From contig NZ_JAHLSY010000006.1 in NCBI RefSeq assembly GCF_019049855.1, positions 1-64,000 of the forward strand: a DNA stretch of 64,000 nucleotides, given 5' to 3'. The position numbers were made by a program, and so were the translations under genes. The DNA is from Hydrogenophilus thiooxidans. Lineage in GTDB: Bacteria; Pseudomonadota; Gammaproteobacteria; Burkholderiales; Rhodocyclaceae. The first letter of the stretch is position 1. The number at the start of each line of letters is the position of its first letter. Positions 51,025 to 62,088 of this stretch are shown here, in pieces. The notes under the pieces are model-generated. The model was not told the DNA's origin and did not search any database. It saw only the letters and a list, made by a program, of their open reading frames with translations.

Positions 51025-52800
51025 TCAGTTATGGGTAGGGGTTGAATCACGGTAGCGGTGACAAAAACGCATCTCTTCCCCGTACGGGAAAAAATCTTCG
51101 ACAATGCCTGCCCGAATCCGTTCTTGCGCATTTTGCCAGAATTGCGGGGTCAAGAGGTCGCGGTGGTGTTTGAGGAAGATCTGCCGGATCTTCGGATCGC
51201 CCAGCAAGAAGGTCGCGAACTCTTCGGGAAAGACGTCACGCGGCCCTGCGGAATACCACGGCTCGTCGCTCATCTCCATTTCAGGATAAGGCGCAGGCGG
51301 AATCGCGCGGAAGTTCATCTCGGTCATATATTCGATCTCGTCGTAGTCGTAGAAAACGACCCGACCGTAGCGCGTCACGCCGAAGTTCTTCCACAGCATG
51401 TCACCGGGGAAGATGTTCGCGATCGCGAGCTCGCGAATCGCATTGCCGTATTCGATGATCGCCGCTTCGGCTTCCTCTGGGGTGGCGGTTTCCAGGTAGA
51501 GGTTGAGCGGCGTCATGCGGCGTTCGATGTAGAGGTGTTTGATCACCAATTGGTCGTCGATCACTTCGATCAGACTGGGCGCCTCTTGCCGCAATTCGAC
51601 GAGCAATTCGGGAGAGAAACGCGCAAGCGGCAACGCCACTTGGGAAAATTCCAGCGTATCGGCCATTCGGCCGACGCGGTCGACTTGCTTCACCATGTGG
51701 TATTTGCGGCGCACGGTGGCGTGGTCGATGTTTTTCGAACTGCCGAAGCGGTCTTTGATCACTTTGAAGACGTACGGGAAAGAGGGTAGGGTGAAGACGA
51801 GCATCACCATCCCTTTGATCCCCGGCGCGATGATGAACTGGTCGTTGGAGTGGCGCAGGTGGGCGATGAGATCGCGGAAGAACATCGTTTTGCCCTGCTT
51901 GCCCAACCCAAGCATCGTATAGAGTTCGGAGCGCGGTTTGTTGGGCATGATCGAGCGTAGGAATTGCACGTAGCCCGACGGGACTTCCATATCGACCAGG
52001 AAGTAGGCACGCGACAGCGAAAAGAGCACGGAGATGCGCCACGCTTCGAAGAGCGCGGTGTCGATGATCAATTTGCCGCTGTCGCCGTGGCGAATCGCCA
52101 GACAGAAGGGGATTTCGTCGTGGCCGTTGATCCCTTTGCCGATCACGTACGCCGTTTTGTTGCGGTAAAACGGGGAATAGAGCACCTGAATCTGGGCGTT
52201 CACTTCCATTTTCGGCCACCGGCCACCCAGGTGCGTCTCCAGCGCGCGTAGGACAAAGCCGATGTCGCGGTCAAGGTCCTCGAAGGGGCGCTCCCAGTCG
52301 AAATCTTCGACGATGCGACGGATCGTTGCCCGTAGCCCCCCCTCTTTCGGGTAATAGCTCGTGTAGACGGGCGGGAACGACTCGATGTATTCGGTCGAGA
52401 TCGCAGGGCGCGCGAAGATGTATTGGTTGTTGAAGTAGCTTCGGTCCAGGATTTTGGTGGTCACCGAATTGAAAAAGGTCTCTGCGAGCTCAGGCTGTTT
52501 GTGGTCGATCAGGTGGTCGATGTAGAAGAGTTTGACCGCACGCCAGGTGGCGTCGTCGAGCGTAGCGATGGGAAACTGCGTTTTGAGCCGTTCGACCGTT
52601 TCGGCAACGCGCTGATCGTAGAATTCGACGCGATCGCGCACCAATTCGAGCTGCTTTTGCCAGTCACCCGCTTCAAAGAGCTCTTTGGCCCGGGCGCTTA
52701 CCGCGCGAAAGATACGGTAGTGCTTGTCGAACCCTTCGATCATCGTTCGTGCCATGCCTTGGGCGATGAGTTCGAGTTCATCGGGCATCGGCCGATCCAT
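51025..52800 (-). CDS. aceK: Isocitrate dehydrogenase kinase/phosphatase
   Basis: 591 residues, full length. Switches isocitrate dehydrogenase off by phosphorylating its active-site Ser, thus opening the glyoxylate bypass. Regulatory N-terminal half and kinase half with IAPGIKGMVMLVFTLPSFPYVFKVIKD (ATP loop and Lys), HLYIERRMTPLNLYL and KNFGVTRYGRVVFYDYDEI (DYDE metal site). Start at 52800 with GGGAGACGA upstream; a huge in-frame extension across icd is a shadow. Divergent from its substrate gene icd. Confidence 0.96.
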   Translation of the reverse strand: MDRPMPDELELIAQGMARTMIEGFDKHYRIFRAVSARAKELFEAGDWQKQLELVRDRVEFYDQRVAETVERLKTQFPIATLDDATWRAVKLFYIDHLIDHKQPELAETFFNSVTTKILDRSYFNNQYIFARPAISTEYIESFPPVYTSYYPKEGGLRATIRRIVEDFDWERPFEDLDRDIGFVLRALETHLGGRWPKMEVNAQIQVLYSPFYRNKTAYVIGKGINGHDEIPFCLAIRHGDSGKLIIDTALFEAWRISVLFSLSRAYFLVDMEVPSGYVQFLRSIMPNKPRSELYTMLGLGKQGKTMFFRDLIAHLRHSNDQFIIAPGIKGMVMLVFTLPSFPYVFKVIKDRFGSSKNIDHATVRRKYHMVKQVDRVGRMADTLEFSQVALPLARFSPELLVELRQEAPSLIEVIDDQLVIKHLYIERRMTPLNLYLETATPEEAEAAIIEYGNAIRELAIANIFPGDMLWKNFGVTRYGRVVFYDYDEIEYMTEMNFRAIPPAPYPEMEMSDEPWYSAGPRDVFPEEFATFLLGDPKIRQIFLKHHRDLLTPQFWQNAQERIRAGIVEDFFPYGEEMRFCHRYRDSTPTHN

Positions 52801-52899
52801 CTTCGTCTCCCTTGTCTGGTTGGAGTTTTCGCGAAGTATAGCGCGGCAAAGGCGTTTTGACGGATAATAAGGGTTCCTAACACAGGGAGTGAAAGCACC

Positions 52900-54144
<1,245 letters not shown>

Positions 54145-54211
54145 GCAACCGACGACTGACGGAAATTCGCTTGCTGTAAGTTTCGCGTAAGCATTCATCC
54201 GTACGCTTTAT

Positions 54212-57184: not shown

Positions 57185-58783
57185 CTACGGCATGGCTTCG
57201 TAGAGCGGCAACGTCAGGAATTCGGGGAATTCCGGATCCAATGCGATCTTCTCGAAGATTTGCGCCGCTTGTTCATACGTTTCCAGCGGTTCGCCTTGGG
57301 CGGCGACCACCGCTTTCACCTTGTCGAGCTCTTCCGGGATCAGGGAGCGGACGAGCTCTGCGGTGACCTTGCGTCCGTCGGTCAAGATCCCTTTTGGGCT
57401 ATAGACCCATTGCCACACTTGCGAGCGCGCGATCTCTGCGGTTGCGGCATCTTCCATCAGGTTGTGGATCGCGACGGCGCCGTTGCCGTTGAGCCATGCG
57501 CCCAGGTAGTGGATCGCCACGTTGATGTTGTTGCGCAGCCCCGCTTCGGTGATCGGCTGTTCCGGACGGAAATCGAGTAGCTCCTTCGCCGTGAAGGTTT
57601 CCGTACGCTGTTTTTCCCACTGGTTGGGTTTGTCGCCGAGCACCGCGACGAACTCTTCCATCGCGATCGGCACCAAACCGGGGTGGGCGACCCAGCCGCC
57701 GTCGAAGCCGTCGTTCGCGTCGCGCCGCTTGTCTTTGCGCACACCTTCGAGCGCACGCGCGTTCGCTTCCGGGTCGTTTTTGATCGGGATCAGCGCGCTC
57801 ATGCCGCCGATCGCCGGGGCGCCGCGCTTATGGCACGCTTTGACGACCGAAAGGGCGTAGGCACGCATGAAGGGAACTTCCATGGTGATCAAATTGCGGT
57901 CGGCCAGGCAGAAGTCTTTGTTTTTCTTGAACTTTTTGATGCAGGAGAAGATGTAGTCCCAGCGCCCTGCGTTGAGACCTGCCGAGTGGTCACGCAGTTC
58001 ATAGAGGATTTCTTCCATCTCGAACGCGGCCAGGATCGTTTCGATCAGAACAGTCGCTTTGATCGTGCCCCGCGGCAGTCCCAATTCGTCTTCGGCGAAA
58101 TGGAAGACGTCGTTCCACAACCGCGCTTCGAGATGGTTTTCGAGCTTCGGCAGGTAGTAGAAGGGGCCGGCGCCGCGCGCGATCTGCTCTTTGGCGTTGT
58201 GGAAAAAGGCCAAGCCGAAATCGAAAAGCCCACCAGAGACGCGTTGCCCGTCGACAAGAACGTGTTTTTCGTCCAGGTGCCAGCCGCGCGGACGGATTTG
58301 CAGCACCGCGATTTTCTCATTCAGTTTGTATTCCTTGCCGTTTTCGGCAACGAAATCGATCTGACGGCGAATCGCGTCATAGACGTTGATCTGCCCTTGG
58401 ATCTGGTTGAACCAGTTGGGACTGTTCGCGTCTTCGAAATCGGTCATGTAGCTGTCCGCGCCGGAGTTGAACGCGTTGATCACCATCTTGCGATCCGACG
58501 CAGGGCCTGTGATTTCGACGCGGCGGCATTCCAACGCTTTGGGCACCGGTGCGATCTTCCAGTCGCCTTCGCGAATGTGCGCCGTTTCGGGAAGGAAATT
58601 GGGCATTTCCCCTGCGTCGATGCGCGCTTGCCGTTCGACGCGCGCGCGCAGGAGTTCTTGCCGCCGTGGTTCGAATTTCCGGTGCAGTTTGGCTACGAAT
58701 GACAGCGCCTCTGGTGTCAGAATCTCGTCGAAGCGTGGGTGCATCGGGGCGTTGATCGTCACGCCGTCAGGTAGTGCAGACAT
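57185..58783 (-). CDS. aceB: Malate synthase A
   Basis: 532 residues, family length. Joins acetyl-CoA and glyoxylate to make malate. [20 protein letters not shown] at the N-terminus, [30 protein letters not shown] (here LQIRPRGW), [24 protein letters not shown] with the metal Glu, and the catalytic Asp in [19 protein letters not shown]. aceA is not in the window. A small palindrome lies about 40 bp upstream. Confidence 0.96.
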
Positions 58784-60699: not shown

Positions 60700-60789
60700 G
60701 GAGGCGTGGCCGAGTGGTTTAAGGCAGCGGTCTTGAAAACCGCCAGGGGTTTGCGCCCCTCGTGAGTTCGAATCTCACCGCCTCCGCCA
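60700..60789 (+). tRNA. tRNA-Ser (anticodon TGA)
   Basis: 90 nt with a long variable arm (AGGGGTTTGCGCCCCT region) and encoded CCA (60787-60789). Acceptor GGAGGCG pairs with CGCCTCC; anticodon stem GCGGT/ACCGC encloses CTTGAAA, anticodon TGA. A TACAAT at 60683-60688 may be its -10 box. Confidence 0.96.
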
Positions 60790-60839: not shown

Positions 60840-61145
60840 TCAAAACTTCTCCGGTCGTAACACGCCCACTTCGAACGTATAAGCCACCACGGCGTAATGG
60901 CGGAAGTAGTGGGTCAGAACGTGATCGAGAATCGCGTCGGCAACTTCCGGCGAACAGAGTACCTCGATGCGGACCGTTTTCGCGGCTTCCCATTCGCCGC
61001 TGCGGGAACCGCGGGAGCCCTGACCGCGGACTTCACAGACGCTGTAACCATGGGCACCCAGGCGCATCACGTCGGTAGTGAGCAGCCCTTCGATCGCTTC
61101 TTCGGCAATGATCACGACGAGTTGTCGGGTAGCGCGCGTTTTCAT
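60840..61145 (-). CDS. sbtB: PII-like signalling protein SbtB
   Basis: 101 residues, PII-like fold. The T-loop region GQGSRGSRSGEWE matches the GxGSRxxRSG of cyanobacterial SbtB, and HYAVVAYTFEVGVLRPEKF matches its last strand. The C-terminal R-loop with its redox cysteine pair, present in cyanobacterial SbtB, is missing. SbtB binds cAMP, AMP and ADP and gates SbtA. Start ATG 61145, 4 bp after sbtA, so the genes are coupled. Confidence 0.88.
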   Translation of the reverse strand: MKTRATRQLVVIIAEEAIEGLLTTDVMRLGAHGYSVCEVRGQGSRGSRSGEWEAAKTVRIEVLCSPEVADAILDHVLTHYFRHYAVVAYTFEVGVLRPEKF

Positions 61146-61149
61146 CTCG

Positions 61150-62088
61150 TTATCCAATGATCTGTTGGGATACGAAATAATACAGCGGGATGCCAACCAG
61201 AATGTTGAAGGGGAAGGTGACCACGAGCGATGCGCCGATCGAGAGCGCCGGGTTGGCTTCGGGCACGGCGATACGCATCGCGGCCGGGGCGGCGATGTAC
61301 GAGGCGCTTGCGGCGAGCGTCGCCAAGAGCATCGCGCCGCCTGCGGAAAGGCCGGCGATTGCCGCGGCGATGAATCCTAGGGTAGCAGAGATGAGCGGCA
61401 TCACGACACCGAAAACCGTCAGAAATACCCCGGCACGCTTCAGCGCGTCGATCTGCCCGGCCGCGACGAGCCCCATTTCCAAGAGAAAGAGCGATAGCGC
61501 TCCTTTGAAGCCGACGAAATAGAACGGTTCGAGCGGGGCGATCTTTTCGGGGCCGGCGAGCCAACCCACGACGAGTCCCCCTGCCAAGAGCACGATACTT
61601 TTCCCTAAAAGGACCTCGTGCGCGAGTGGTCCCCAGCGGACGGTTTGGAGGTTACCCATCCGCGCCAGAAGAATCCCGACGATGATCCCGGGGATCTCAA
61701 GAAGGACGAGGAAAAGCGGCGCGTACGCTTCGAATGGGACGTTTTTGGCGCGGAGAAAGTCGAGCGCGACCGCAAACGTCACCGCGCTCACCGAACCGTA
61801 ATGACCGGCGATCGACGCGGCGTCGGGCCGCGGCAGTCGACCCAAACGGGTGAGGATGGGAAACGCAACGAGCGGGATGAGCACGCCCAAGAGGAACGTT
61901 ACCCCTGCTTTGGGTGCGACTTCGAAGAAAGGCTCTTTGGCAAGTTCCACACCGCCTTTGAGACCGATCGCCAGGAGCAGATAGATCGAAAGGGCTTCGT
62001 AGAGTTGTCCGGGGATTTTGAGGTCAGAACGCGCGAGTCGCGCCAGAAAACCCAGTACGAAGAAGAGCGGAACCGGATCGAATGCCAT
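61150..62088 (-). CDS. sbtA: Sodium-dependent bicarbonate transporter SbtA
   Basis: 312 residues, about ten helices, DUF897 family. LPRPDAASIAGHYGSVSAVTFAVAL holds the conserved HYGSVSAVTF bicarbonate/sodium site, ALYEALSIYLLLAIGLKGGVEL (here QLYEALSIYL...) the first signature, and ASASYIAAPAAMRIAVPEANP the second half-site. Brings in bicarbonate with Na+ to feed carbon fixation. In other bacteria the pair sits under CO2 control; none of that is visible here. Confidence 0.9.
   Translation of the reverse strand: MAFDPVPLFFVLGFLARLARSDLKIPGQLYEALSIYLLLAIGLKGGVELAKEPFFEVAPKAGVTFLLGVLIPLVAFPILTRLGRLPRPDAASIAGHYGSVSAVTFAVALDFLRAKNVPFEAYAPLFLVLLEIPGIIVGILLARMGNLQTVRWGPLAHEVLLGKSIVLLAGGLVVGWLAGPEKIAPLEPFYFVGFKGALSLFLLEMGLVAAGQIDALKRAGVFLTVFGVVMPLISATLGFIAAAIAGLSAGGAMLLATLAASASYIAAPAAMRIAVPEANPALSIGASLVVTFPFNILVGIPLYYFVSQQIIG

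Follow-up and report, generated by a model that had tools for sequence, protein, structure and literature searches.

Does a bicarbonate gate that lacks its redox loop tell us something about life in the dark? The question is raised by two genes in a 64,000-nucleotide stretch of Hydrogenophilus thiooxidans DNA (the window; contig NZ_JAHLSY010000006.1, positions 1 to 64,000). An earlier, sequence-only reading had seen in them a bicarbonate permease, SbtA, and its PII-like gate, SbtB, lying 4 bp apart in a betaproteobacterium, and had noted that SbtB lacks the redox-responsive cysteine loop of the C-terminus (the R-loop). It had proposed that nucleotide sensing may persist without light/redox control, as would suit a dark chemolithoautotroph. 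Read as an account of origins, SbtB would have shed the loop for want of a light/redox cycle in such a cell. The identity and spacing of the pair are confirmed by ORF coordinates as well as Pfam and PDB matches. In the window, the locus and its bounds are:

61150 to 62088, minus strand: sbtA, a Na+/HCO3- symporter-like permease of 312 amino acids with a short TM5-6 loop
60840 to 61145, minus strand: sbtB, a PII-like gate of 101 amino acids with an ATG start, without R-loop
62122 to 62502, minus strand: a folB-like gene (Pfam), 33 bp upstream of sbtA and on the same strand
60700 to 60789, plus strand: tRNA-Ser(UGA), convergent, bounding the operon downstream, ~50 bp past sbtB

SbtA matches the Pfam family Sbt_1 over residues 5-306, i.e. 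the whole protein (1.5e-115, 386 bits), and Synechocystis SbtA in the PDB (7cye, 2.1e-30); it is 46-70% identical to 17 homologues of related genomes. SbtB matches the Pfam family P-II (8e-20, 70.8-71.5 bits), and an NCBIfam search with it gave no match. A canonical PII protein (GlnB/GlnK) was rejected for this gene, the genome's other two PII genes scoring 123 and 119 bits. By sequence, the closest PDB entries to SbtB are TTHA0516 of Thermus thermophilus (2cz4, 7.5e-22) and then Cyanobium SbtB (2e-10), and Foldseek returned the same first two, 2cz4 and SbtB, for its AlphaFold2 model (mean pLDDT 87; T-loop residues 50-52 below 50). A longer ORF in the sbtB frame starts with a TTG at 61196 and extends back into sbtA. 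The folB-like gene is possibly co-transcribed with sbtA. A conserved folB-sbtAB unit was rejected: among 110 loci, 30 of them with only ~1.5 kb of flank, folB was found to adjoin sbtA only in the host genome and in one congener. Elsewhere in the window, a long ORF at 51025-54198 (minus strand), whose C-terminal part we take to be isocitrate dehydrogenase kinase/phosphatase-like, lies opposite a presumably isocitrate dehydrogenase-like ORF at 52900-54144 (plus strand); together with a presumed malate synthase-like ORF at 57185-58783 (minus strand), we take these to form a glyoxylate-bypass neighbourhood.

The C-terminus of SbtB is as had been described:

60843 to 60857, minus strand: RPEKF, an end common to most of the family

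No cysteine loop follows, and neither of the two cysteines present, C37 and C64, is C-terminal. A truncation of sbtB or a frameshift concealing the loop, against which the earlier reading had cautioned, was rejected: none of the three frames past the stop codon holds a CGPxGC-like peptide or another cysteine hairpin. A sequencing frameshift is unlikely because a second genome of the genus carries an identical SbtB adjoining the same SbtA.

That the loop was lost in the dark would agree with its absence here and with the genome of the host, which is that of a chemolithoautotroph; the distribution of the loop nevertheless makes this explanation very improbable. In the accessible part of a study of 460 cyanobacterial SbtBs, the R-loop is present in only ~50% of them and is described as an addition to a basal SbtB; SbtB of Cyanobium 7001 naturally lacks it, and SbtBs without it are stated to respond mainly to the energy state of the cell (PMC10991534). 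Outside cyanobacteria, we sampled 80 named SbtA loci, the best of 577 found. SbtB adjoins SbtA in 77 of these 80 loci and is lacking in three, and not one of the 77 SbtBs, whatever the lifestyle of the host, has a C-terminal cysteine pair or, in the alignment, any extension past F101 that contains a cysteine. Two shorter SbtBs in this sample (L068 and L071) each carry one cysteine close to the C-terminus. Our direct comparison with cyanobacteria covers two plasmid-borne pairs only, the ~50% figure being that of the study above: SbtB of Acaryochloris reads ...YKF and then directly CGPDGC, while that of the phototroph Pseudanabaena ends in ...HEF, also without R-loop. These ends show the R-loop to be an extension appended after a shared ...KF end in some cyanobacteria. 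As about half of the cyanobacterial SbtBs, going by the accessible text of that study, and all 77 non-cyanobacterial ones do without it, an absent R-loop is no mark of darkness. Contrary to the proposed link with a dark lifestyle, R-loop-free SbtB is the usual basal state outside cyanobacteria and not a loss tied to darkness. To judge from its sequence, the Hydrogenophilus protein plausibly combines nucleotide sensing with a lack of redox control.

Characterized relatives fit into this picture to different degrees. SbtB of Cyanobium sp. PCC 7001 (PDB 6mm2, 6mmc, 6mmo, 6mmq, 6ntb), a regulator of SbtA, shares the PII-like fold, the GxGSRxxRS motif and a KF end without R-loop with the Hydrogenophilus protein (29-37% identity among the fold matches listed), but has a longer T-loop and a phototrophic host. 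TTHA0516, the best match in both sequence and fold, likewise has no R-loop and carries a Trp in a short T-loop; its own end is GEKY. An SbtA-SbtB pair is present in Meiothermus (L125), a relative of Thermus. The Synechocystis PCC 6803 system (7cye, 7cyf, 7egk) has in common with ours the Sbt_1 permease, the PII-like gate and the SbtA residues S114, S322 and S324, yet differs in the R-loop of its SbtB (C105-C110) and in the longer TM5-6 loop and residues Y140, D325 and S327 of its SbtA. For the PII-like protein CPII of Thiomonas intermedia (5d4n and others), the PDB titles give structures in complex with ADP, AMP and bicarbonate; it matches Hydrogenophilus SbtB only at E 0.18 by sequence and at 23-24% identity in the fold matches. 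Finally, the Hydrogenophilus pair might be the SbtA2-SbtB2 system of marine Synechococcus. It resembles that system by description, the accessible part of the source presenting SbtA2 as a second SbtA family with a PII-like partner of its own (PMC13249358), and we consider the equation doubtful.

Which features, then, set the Hydrogenophilus pair apart, if not the missing loop? The relevant positions in the window are:

60963 to 61019, minus strand: SbtB T-loop region G43-E61, with GSRGSR...W52, placed by alignments
61786 to 61788, minus strand: SbtA S101, equivalent to Synechocystis S114, kept
61708 to 61710, minus strand: SbtA L127, equivalent to Synechocystis Y140, replaced
61291 to 61302, minus strand: SbtA S263-A266, in which S324 is kept (S263), D325 is changed to Y264 and S327 to A266

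The T-loop motif GxGSRxxRSG was rightly said to be kept; it reads GQGSRGSRSG in Hydrogenophilus and includes both arginines of RxxR, R45 and R48. As stated in the accessible part of PMC10117731, the corresponding R43 and R46 of SbtB hold the nucleotide phosphates. Among the 77 SbtBs (best 80 of 577 loci), the first arginine is found in 50 and the second, equivalent to R48, in 75. The T-loop region comprises 19 residues in 70 of these SbtBs, 18 in six and 23 in one, and a Trp occupies position 52 in 72. It is 23 residues long in both cyanobacterial SbtBs that we read, so the Hydrogenophilus loop is four residues shorter and may not plug SbtA as in the solved complexes.

In SbtA, two of the four published HCO3- residues (S114, Y140, S324, S327) are kept, as S101 and S263. 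Alanine mutants of these four retain ~10-40% transport in Synechocystis SbtA, where the HCO3- site is a docking model supported by the mutants (PMC8352866). All 80 named homologues (best 80 of 577) keep S114, S322, S324 and G111, and all 80 carry the changes of D325 to Y and of S327 to A; the Y140 position is L in 51 and V in 29. Since the pocket changes are clade-wide, we read them as the marker of a variant and not as grounds for exclusion from the SbtA family. The alignments point to the clade as what is distinctive, with a T-loop that is usually four residues shorter and has a conserved Trp, and with an altered SbtA pocket. The Hydrogenophilus pair carries this signature.

So uniform a replacement of Y140, D325 and S327 could also mean that SbtA of this clade transports another anion or a carboxylate. 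We regard this as unlikely: S114, S322, S324 and G111 are invariant, the published site from which the clade departs is a docking model, and non-cyanobacterial Sbt proteins accumulate dissolved inorganic carbon (DIC) in E. coli. The latter evidence, from the accessible part of PMC12628692, concerns two Sbt proteins of the chemolithoautotroph Thiomicrospira pelophila, which rescued E. coli devoid of carbonic anhydrase and increased its internal DIC; they may or may not belong to the SbtA clade of Hydrogenophilus.

If the pair is widespread, is it at least a trait of autotrophs? The host is an autotroph, although not an exclusive one. In its genome, the large subunit of the hydrogenase aligns over its whole length (987 bits) with the NAD-reducing enzyme of PDB entry 5xf9, which we take to be from Hydrogenophilus thermoluteolus. 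The cbbL gene encodes a form I RuBisCO whose nearest PDB entries are 7smk and 1svd, and the ORFs after it read by eye as cbbS- and cbbQ-like. The genome paper of strain TH-1 names hoxFUYH, citing a 2017 structure of an NAD-reducing hydrogenase for them, and describes a facultative chemolithoautotroph capable of heterotrophic growth as well (PMC6256470). A chemolithoautotrophic host thus holds in terms of RuBisCO and hydrogenase but must be qualified as facultative. Carboxysome shell proteins (PF00936) were not found in the Hydrogenophilus genome by a search that was positive in two control genomes, nor were DabA or a beta-carbonic anhydrase; an alpha-carbonic anhydrase was found. No beta-carbonic anhydrase turned up in the three Hydrogenophilus genomes (G000-G002, one of which is only 76% complete), against matches in 126 of the 150 genomes searched. 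The idea that SbtA replaces the missing carbonic anhydrase was rejected, as SbtA occurs in 5 of 24 genomes without the beta enzyme and in 40 of 126 with it (p 0.34); the alpha-carbonic anhydrase of Hydrogenophilus also counters it.

Across these 150 genomes, Hydrogenophilus included, SbtA is present in 45 and SbtB in 26, all of which also have SbtA, and each of the 29 SbtB matches adjoins an SbtA. Pairing is thus frequent without being universal: at E 0.001, no SbtB was matched in 19 of the 45 SbtA genomes. In one relative, sbtA is broken by an in-frame TGA while the adjoining sbtB is open (L030/L050). True RuBisCO was counted above 370 bits (61 of 150 genomes) or with three further matches of ~210 bits (64 genomes), and five weak ones were left out of the count as RuBisCO-like. 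SbtB showed no association with RuBisCO in the 150 genomes (Fisher p 0.52 or 1.0), and neither did SbtA, all comparisons of the two proteins giving Fisher p 0.15-1; true RuBisCO is missing in 15 of the 26 SbtB genomes on the wider count and in 17 on the stricter one. Among 33 named SbtA genomes, RuBisCO exceeds 400 bits in nine, only weaker matches occur in four and there is no match in 20, which include Pseudomonas, Stutzerimonas, Arthrobacter and Cryobacterium. The SbtA-SbtB pair is not tied to autotrophy.

The gene neighbourhoods of the homologues may say more about what the pair is for. At the 80 sampled loci (best 80 of 577), Pfam scans covered 66 of 79 nearest neighbours on the upstream side and 67 of 78 on the downstream side, and all ORFs were clustered. 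By Pfam or NCBIfam, the neighbours include PurE, PurK, biotin carboxylase, pyruvate carboxylase subunit B, beta-carbonic anhydrase, TsaC/Sua5 and CbbQ, and a further cluster is presumably CbbO. Bicarbonate serves PurK, pyruvate carboxylase and TsaC as a substrate. As to the names, NCBIfam does not separate the subunits of pyruvate carboxylase cleanly from acetyl-CoA carboxylase and oxaloacetate decarboxylase, whose models overlap with their labels, and the representatives of beta-carbonic anhydrase, CbbQ and LysR had no NCBIfam model at the cut-off, the first two being named by Pfam. With ORFs overlapping sbtAB excluded, 31 of the 80 loci have at least one HCO3-/CO2-handling gene nearby, or 23 when Cbb genes are left out; CbbQ and/or CbbO occur at nine. 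The same eight families were absent from all 52 control windows, which were up to 20 kb each (1.035 Mb in total, compared per base) and came from eight complete relatives and 12 named genomes. The enrichment (p = 6e-15) overstates independence because the loci are related, and the eight families were chosen from the test loci before the controls were searched, which weakens the p value but leaves the operons themselves unaffected. Merging loci that share at least 1.5 kb by megablast reduced the 80 loci to 58 groups, 17 of which retain an HCO3-/CO2-handling neighbour, with purE/purK loci in seven groups and pyruvate carboxylase loci in one.

The tightest arrangements involve purine synthesis. 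In Ca. Tectomicrobia (L086), the order is sbtA, sbtB, purE, purK with 4-bp overlaps from sbtB on; in an Opitutae locus (L135), purK starts 2 bp past sbtB; and in the gammaproteobacterium LSUCC0057 (L090), purE-purK lies ~100 bp ahead of sbtA-sbtB. The genes of these three operons were checked by their domains, apart from sbtAB of L090, which the locus searches had identified, and no RuBisCO match was found in the genomes of L090 and L135. At L080 and L113, purE-purK likewise lies a short way from sbtAB with the same orientation, so that the five loci combine these genes in differing orders and phyla. Several loci in the sample are on MAG contigs, where misassembly is possible. Upstream of sbtAB and on its strand, Pseudomonas, Stutzerimonas and relatives encode biotin carboxylase together with subunit B of pyruvate carboxylase (L097, L106, L111, L112, L115, L116, L127 and L131, the one group of related loci mentioned above). 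Genes that handle HCO3-/CO2 count against another substrate for SbtA; together with the sbtAB-purEK operons, they support HCO3- despite the changed pocket.

Some loci stand apart. Over 8.2 kb around sbtAB, the contigs L099 (Luteimonas terricola) and L100 (Azoarcus taiwanensis) share 99.9% identity, which may reflect a mislabelled or contaminated record or a very recent transfer. Five SbtA-like genes (L149-L153), 36-42% identical, lie on IMG/VR contigs listed as viral (121, 519, 13, 35 and 21 kb), with no SbtB match within ~3 kb on either side; an alternative oxidase adjoins the gene in L150 and a TerC gene that in L151, whereas the gene of L153 is split over two frames next to a terminase-like gene. 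These are possibly phage-carried bicarbonate transporters without a gate, and a limited literature search retrieved no paper combining all the topics sought.

Taken at face value, the neighbourhoods raise the alternative that SbtAB is a general bicarbonate feed for PurK, pyruvate carboxylase and acetyl-CoA carboxylase rather than a CO2-concentrating device, its link to RuBisCO being incidental in Hydrogenophilus. The missing association with RuBisCO, the 20 named SbtA genomes without any RuBisCO match and the pur, pyc and carbonic anhydrase neighbours all favour this alternative. It is weakened by relatives in which SbtA lies near RuBisCO (~4 kb in G060, ~13 kb in G001), by the Cbb neighbours, by the confinement of the pyc neighbours to a single group and by the Hydrogenophilus operon itself, where none of the four window neighbours scanned with Pfam is an HCO3- enzyme. 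We see it as a serious contender but would lean somewhat against it.

Our preferred reading, which we hold to be probable, is that sbtAB of Hydrogenophilus is a two-gene operon of a widespread non-cyanobacterial clade, serving as an adenylate-gated bicarbonate feed in its basal, R-loop-free state. Gene identity, pairing, the lack of an R-loop, the intact RxxR, the differences across the clade and the neighbourhoods of the homologues are observed; transport by SbtA, its gating by SbtB and nucleotide sensing by SbtB are what we infer. SbtA would import HCO3- together with Na+, and an SbtB trimer would dock on its cytoplasmic face so that the T-loop blocks the exit. Docking would follow the energy charge through the adenine nucleotides that occupy the clefts of SbtB (ATP versus ADP/AMP, perhaps cAMP). 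A protein that has no R-loop would lack the thiol switch and probably also an apyrase activity driven by redox. In Hydrogenophilus, the imported HCO3- would reach carboxylases and, via conversion to CO2, RuBisCO. The wide distribution of SbtAB has probably been noticed already, given the title of a preprint (Haffner et al. 2023), in which PII proteins plug a valve for both bicarbonate and ammonia 'among different bacterial phyla'.

The tempting story of a loop lost in the dark is thereby set aside in favour of an alternative that can be tested, and the more interesting lead lies in the neighbourhoods of the clade in bacteria in which no RuBisCO was found. A gate familiar from carbon concentration in cyanobacteria is also encoded next to genes of purine synthesis and pyruvate carboxylase, several times in genomes without a RuBisCO match. 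Tentatively, and with a little less than even confidence, we propose that anabolic carboxylation (purine synthesis via PurK, anaplerosis via pyruvate carboxylase) is what the pair supplies with bicarbonate outside cyanobacteria, under PII gating, with a substrate pocket of its own and with a short T-loop that bears a Trp; the cyanobacterial pair and its R-loop would then be a specialised branch. If so, control of the bicarbonate supply by PII-type proteins would be a device of general metabolism, and the short SbtB without the loop would serve well as a model of the basal gate that senses energy.
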